A DNA stretch of 47,665 bases from Thermoleophilia bacterium (GTDB lineage: Bacteria > Actinomycetota > Thermoleophilia > Gaiellales > Gaiellaceae), in contig JAICWC010000009.1 in NCBI GenBank assembly GCA_025934995.1, forward strand, positions 1-47,665, read 5' to 3'. A model generated the notes under the pieces. The model made no database searches, had not been told where the DNA came from, and was given only the letters and a program-made list of their open reading frames with translations. Both the position numbers and the translations under genes were made by a program. Numbering within the stretch: the first letter of the stretch is position 1; each line of letters opens with the position of its first letter. This document shows positions 4,743 through 5,378 of this stretch, in pieces.

Positions 4743-5378
4743 CTAGGGAAGCTGCCAGAACTCGTCCGTGAGGCCGAGCCGTTCGAGGATCGCGGCGTTC
4801 TGCTCGCGCGTGTGCGGGCGCCAGTCCGGCGCGAGCCGGTCGTCCCACCAGGCGAAGGCGAGCTCGGCGAGCTTCGTGACCGGGATGATCGCGCCGCCGT
4901 CCCGCCAGCGCCGTGCGTGCTCTTCCGACCGGAAGAGGTTCATCGTGCTTCAGGTGAAGACGATGTCCGTCCACCAGTCGCGCGCGGGCACGAGACACTG
5001 GAAGACGAGCGACTCGTCGTCCGGCCGCTCGTCGCGCACCTCGACCGCGAGCGGCTCCCCACAGTCGGGGCACGAGGTCTCGATCCGGCCGTCGGCATGC
5101 AAGGCCGCACAGATCCCGAACGCATCCCAGGCGCAGTTCGCGTACCACCAGCGCCCGCGCGCGTGGACGCGGTAGGAGGTCGGCACCGCCGAGAACGGAT
5201 TCGCCATCCGGAGCTCGTTGGTGACGGGGTCGAGGACGAGCGCATGCGCGTCGTGCAGGCGACGCCATGCCGCGAGCACGTCCTCCGGATCGCCCACCTC
5301 GCCGGGGGCCGGCGCCCGTCCCAGCTCGACGAACCGCTGGTACGTACGATTGCGAATCGCGATGTCCGCGGCCTCCAT
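4743..5378 (-). CDS. MerB-like (alkylmercury/organomercurial lyase family) protein, candidate selenoprotein with in-frame TGA (Sec143)
   Basis: ORFs 4950..5378 and 4743..4943 are in the same frame, separated by a single TGA (minus strand, 4952..4950): ...YANCAWDAFGICAALHADG...ARDWWTDIVFT[U]STMNLFRSEEHARRW...; CAWD matches MerB Cys96/Asp99 and U aligns with MerB Cys159. Confidence 0.83.
4920..4937 (-). promoter_or_regulatory. Candidate bacterial SECIS element for the MerB-like gene
   Basis: mRNA: UGA-12 nt-CUCUUCC-GGUC-GGAAGAG; perfect 7-bp stem, apical loop GGUC begins 19 nt after UGA. Confidence 0.75.

Follow-up and report, generated by a model that had tools for sequence, protein, structure and literature searches.

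A 7-bp hairpin capped by a GGUC loop very probably directs selenocysteine (Sec) insertion at an in-frame UGA of a MerB-family gene in the window, which is the whole stretch of 47,665 nucleotides of Thermoleophilia bacterium DNA analysed here. A conserved stop codon, a conserved hairpin, the Sec machinery of the genome and Cys-encoding homologues without the hairpin together argue, from sequence comparison, for a MerB-family protein that contains Sec by way of a bacterial SECIS element. The hairpin is retained across actinobacterial relatives even where the Sec codon has moved from UGA to UAG. The gene and its elements lie at the following positions.

4743–5378, minus strand: putative gene of a MerB-family selenoprotein, 211 residues long if TGA is Sec, ending at the stop TAG 4745–4743 (Pfam MerB, alignment A1, structure model).
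5133–5135, minus strand: codon of C82, counterpart of MerB Cys96, invariant in A1; TGA here in a related subfamily.
5124–5126, minus strand: codon of D85, counterpart of MerB Asp99, invariant in A1.
4952–4950, minus strand: in-frame TGA, residue U143; a stop (TGA or TAG) at this column in 24/24 close relatives.
4949–4938, minus strand: 12-nt spacer between the TGA and the stem, AGCACGATGAAC.
4937–4931 (CTCTTCC) with 4926–4920 (GGAAGAG), minus strand: 7-bp stem of the candidate SECIS hairpin, its pairing assessed over 47 homologues.
4930–4927, minus strand: GGUC apical loop (GGTC in the DNA); CGGTCG at the same distance in 46/47 homologues.

The frame that starts at 5378 on the minus strand is open across the TGA to the TAG at 4745–4743. 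With the TGA read as Sec, a 205-residue query scores 92.5 bits against Pfam MerB (PF03243, cut-off 27), with a match that spans the TGA, and alignment A1 (22 rows) likewise covers both sides of this codon. The AlphaFold model is confident (pLDDT 94). All of its PDB matches at E < 0.001 are to MerB or MerB2, with TM-scores of 0.45–0.61, and in the MerB2 structure 5c17 a Cys is aligned with residue 143. In MerB numbering, we take C82 to be Cys96, D85 to be Asp99 and U143 to be the catalytic Cys159. The catalytic set of Pfam MerB is present on this numbering, with C82 and D85 invariant and the Sec codon replacing Cys159.

Re-reading of the minus strand bore out the hairpin described in the initial annotation: seven perfect pairs and a GGUC loop that begins 19 nt past the UGA. 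Published constraints on bacterial SECIS elements specify an apical loop of 3–9 nt on an upper stem of 4–16 bp, a distance of 16–37 nt from the Sec codon to the apical loop and a minimum free energy of at most −7.5 kcal/mol (PMC13188914). The window hairpin agrees with the published constraints in 4/4 respects: a 4-nt loop on a 7-bp stem, the GGUC sequence, the 19-nt distance and an energy of −9.1 kcal/mol for the hairpin folded alone. The energy of the 18-nt hairpin lies above −7.5 kcal/mol in 5/47 homologues. Further, the 53-nt region as a whole does not exceed its shuffles in stability (z = 0.02), so stability by itself is no proof, and we dropped folding energy as evidence. The arrangement itself is rare. 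Among 3470 TGAs of the same genome (~419 kb of strand-bases), we found no second GGTC loop on a stem of 6 bp or more at this spacing. In a Markov model of the window, 30178 TGAs included one case whose stem reached 7 bp or more. A loose genome-wide scan for YCCGGTCGGR was unspecific, returning 90 sites; among the loci checked, a matching TGA and stem occurred only at the window site. A chance origin of the hairpin was rejected.

First, the stop codon is conserved, and it varies together with the tRNA. A scan of 85,488 species genomes yielded 24 relatives with 61–77% identity, and 24/24 have a stop at exactly the same codon: TAG in five and TGA in the others. The TAG homologues are all from Geodermatophilus, Blastococcus or Modestobacter (Geodermatophilaceae). 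The tRNA-Sec anticodon is CUA in 5/5 TAG genomes and UCA in all 13 TGA genomes that yielded a tRNA-Sec (12 relatives and the window's own genome); five incomplete TGA genomes gave no detected tRNA-Sec. The association of TAG with CUA and of TGA with UCA has a Fisher p of 1e-4, with the TAG switch representing one clade. Such a match between stop codon and tRNA-Sec anticodon is hard to explain unless tRNA-Sec reads the codon.

ARAGORN labels the tRNA-Sec(CUA) of five Geodermatophilaceae records (L046, L047, L049, L050 and L054) as tRNA-Pyl, and automatic annotation could mistake these molecules for pyrrolysine tRNAs. Two sequences from outside the phylum by label, L021 (labelled Acidobacteriota) and L035 (Thermoflexaceae, Chloroflexota), are placed by the tree within the actinobacterial clade, through either wrong binning or gene transfer.

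The same conservation bears on two other readings, a sequencing error at the TGA and a decaying pseudogene. The assembly is fragmented (200 contigs, 88% complete) and isolated frameshifted copies exist (L040, L093 and L151), both of which would suit such readings. Against them, 24 independent records, named isolates among them, have a stop at this very codon, and the part downstream of the TGA is conserved in A1. We regard error or decay as vanishingly improbable, and a pseudogene was rejected on the conservation of the stop across independent genomes. Two of the frameshifted copies have features of their own. L093 keeps the hairpin yet has TGG at the Sec site and a broken frame. In L151 (1432–1898, on the Rubrobacter radiotolerans plasmid NZ_CP007515.1), the annotated merB is 90 residues long; homology continues in frame past a TGA before the frame shifts, and this looks like a decayed copy of the Sec type.

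Second, the hairpin appears to be under selection as RNA. Of 47 homologues with TGA or TAG, 46 have CGGTCG around the loop and one has CGATCG, at an identical distance. Compensatory changes are present in the stem among the TGA and TAG homologues: four of the seven stem pairs have changes on both sides, as in L086 (TCCTTC/GAAGGA), L089 (TCCTCC/GGAGGA) and L091 (GCTTCC/GGAAGC). In figures that the relatedness of the sequences inflates, 95.7% of pair cells in the 47 homologues are paired, compared with 48–64% for slid partners, and the strongest synonymous constraint of 132 codon columns in 22 genes falls on R150 and S151, exactly the loop, with CGG for R150 in 21/22 (usage 0.35), TCG for S151 in 22/22 (usage 0.40) and, in the Leu column at residue L148, CTC in 21/21. 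One homologue, L088, keeps the TGA but has inserted codons and lacks the CGGTCG loop.

Third, the hairpin differs where the codon does. Seven homologues have a Cys codon and no GGUC-capped hairpin, five from actinobacterial genomes (L082, L083, L094, L096 and L098) and two from Burkholderiales plasmids (L149 and L150). The initial annotation had weighed the case in which Cys homologues share the identical hairpin sequence, implying constraint on the protein only; in these homologues the hairpin sequence is different. L149 retains Phe-Arg-Ser, and its inverted repeat is another one, TTCCGG-TCT-CCGGAA. The other six do not even have the Arg-Ser pair, a distribution suggesting that the peptide follows the RNA. 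The Cys pair L082/L083 is placed among the Sec forms in the tree, with weak support.

These comparisons also weigh on the reading of the TGA as a real stop, in which a short MerB-like protein ends upstream, a small protein starts from an ATG three codons on and the hairpin mirrors the NLFRSEEH peptide. An ATG does follow the TGA in most relatives, and the automatic annotation of a plasmid relative ends near such a stop. But the ATG is ATC in L081, L086 and L089–L091, the catalytic Cys position would be lost, TAG stands in place of TGA precisely in the genomes with tRNA-Sec(CUA), codon usage falls far short of the fixation of the loop codons and the Arg-Ser residues are gone in six of the seven Cys homologues. 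We rejected a stop followed by a restart on the codon–anticodon match, the loop codon constraint and the ATC variants, and consider a real stop here highly improbable.

Fourth, the genome is equipped to read UGA as Sec. It encodes selA (498 bits) with an adjoining selB, a tRNA-Sec(UCA) of 60 bits on the same contig and, elsewhere, selD (331 bits), and thus holds the Sec-decoding set of selA, selB, selC and selD. The Sec reading had been made to depend on SelB, which is found at 357 bits against a cut-off of 242. A formate dehydrogenase alpha gene in the same genome (locus L148, position 1920, contig C195) also has an in-frame TGA, at the usual place (ARI-U-HSS). A GUC-capped stem comes after it, spaced as in the MerB-like gene; this formate dehydrogenase is likely a second selenoprotein. 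Among 398 genomes sampled from the phylum, SelB scores over its cut-off in 20/22 genomes with TGA at the Sec column of a MerB homologue, a count tallied by hand from tables, compared with 197/376 of the others. The two TGA genomes without SelB over the cut-off are 68% and 73% complete. The proposal of a bacterial SECIS for Sec insertion is supported by stop conservation, hairpin conservation, machinery and the codon–anticodon match. Of the evidence, the codon–anticodon match, the synonymous constraint on the loop codons and the compensatory stem changes extend the initial annotation.

In the mechanism we envisage, a ribosome would reach the UGA, which precedes the loop by 19 nt, while SelB with Sec-tRNA-Sec(UCA) binds the GGUC-capped stem. 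The UGA would be read as Sec at residue 143, the position of the catalytic Cys159 of organomercurial lyase, giving a full-length MerB-like product with the predicted catalytic set C82, D85 and U143. The resulting selenolate and thiolate would most likely cleave or capture organomercury or a related organometal. For organomercurial lyase chemistry in particular, the sequence leaves us evenly balanced.

The Sec reading may also be right for a protein that senses, carries or scavenges metals or other ligands and is not a lyase, a view to which we give slightly less than even weight. Consistent with such a role, there are no mer genes near the locus and no conserved neighbour genes among relatives; the gene context is common to the three closest relatives only, so that the neighbourhood yields no function. 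In the window's own genome, both paralogues of MerA are under the cut-off. The gene product scores 30 bits against the NCBIfam MerB equivalogs NF009710 and NF033555, far below their curated cut-offs of 193 and 200, and a sister subfamily has AAA or cyclase domains fused to it. On the side of a lyase, the fold and the counterparts of all three catalytic residues are retained.

The related forms extend beyond a single Sec codon. A related subfamily in three genomes (L142, L143 and L144) has TGA at both the C82 and the U143 columns, within the motifs WFGL-U-GME and FN-U-SRMNLFRSEEH, and in 2/3 of these genes a stem capped by GUC or GUG comes after the first TGA. L142 is the same gene as L097 and L143 the same as L095; both have a long C-terminal extension, which in L095 matches an AAA ATPase domain. 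In L105 (1462–2694), a MerB-like domain with Cys at the first catalytic site and TGA at the second is joined to an adenylate/guanylate cyclase domain, a fusion hinting that this branch may act in sensing. A widespread actinobacterial MerB family with Sec at Cys159 as the rule, UAG versions in Geodermatophilaceae and an AAA-fused double-Sec sister subfamily might, as a tentative view, form an undescribed system of selenium-based organometal chemistry or sensing.

These observations point to what looks like a selenoprotein family of its own, in a lineage whose selenoproteins readily escape notice since annotated genes end at the stop codon. Mercury is bound far more tightly by selenium than by sulfur, and a Sec organomercurial lyase, if true, would therefore directly test why selenium sits in a metal-handling active site. 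In addition, the switch from UGA to UAG with a tRNA-Sec of anticodon CUA provides a comparison in nature between two stop codons recoded as Sec with the same hairpin.

Among known systems, the SECIS element of E. coli fdhF has its loop 18 nt past the UGA. The window hairpin shares its GGUC apical loop and closely matches its spacing (19 nt), whereas the window stem is a plain 7 bp without the bulged U of E. coli. UAG-coded selenocysteine was reportedly found in Geodermatophilaceae by Mukai in 2016. The five TAG homologues come from this same family and have tRNA-Sec(CUA), whereas the window gene uses UGA; UAG recoding is also mentioned in the literature (PMC10778597). With MerB and MerB2 (PF03243; PDB 3f0o and 5c17), the window protein shares the fold, a winged-helix N-terminus and the Cys-Asp-Cys catalytic set. 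It differs from them in having Sec as the second catalytic Cys, in its identity of 18–22% and TM-scores of 0.45–0.61, and in occurring without a mer operon.

A description of a Sec-MerB family with a TU or NU motif was not found in the literature searched, in which coverage of key selenoprotein papers is incomplete, and the family is probably new to the literature. A review of Clostridioides-type systems, from which we draw our description, lists a single MerB-type selenoprotein, the MerB-like organometallic lyase SaoL, whose motif is CU (PMC13188914). SaoL (NCBIfam NF040728) resembles the window protein in belonging to the MerB family and in having Sec near the second catalytic Cys position. 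However, the window protein scores 46 bits against the SaoL cut-off of 140, with a match that stops before the Sec site, and has TU, with TU or NU in its relatives, where SaoL has CU. The family found here is spread over many families of Actinomycetota and is set apart from SaoL by profile score and motif.
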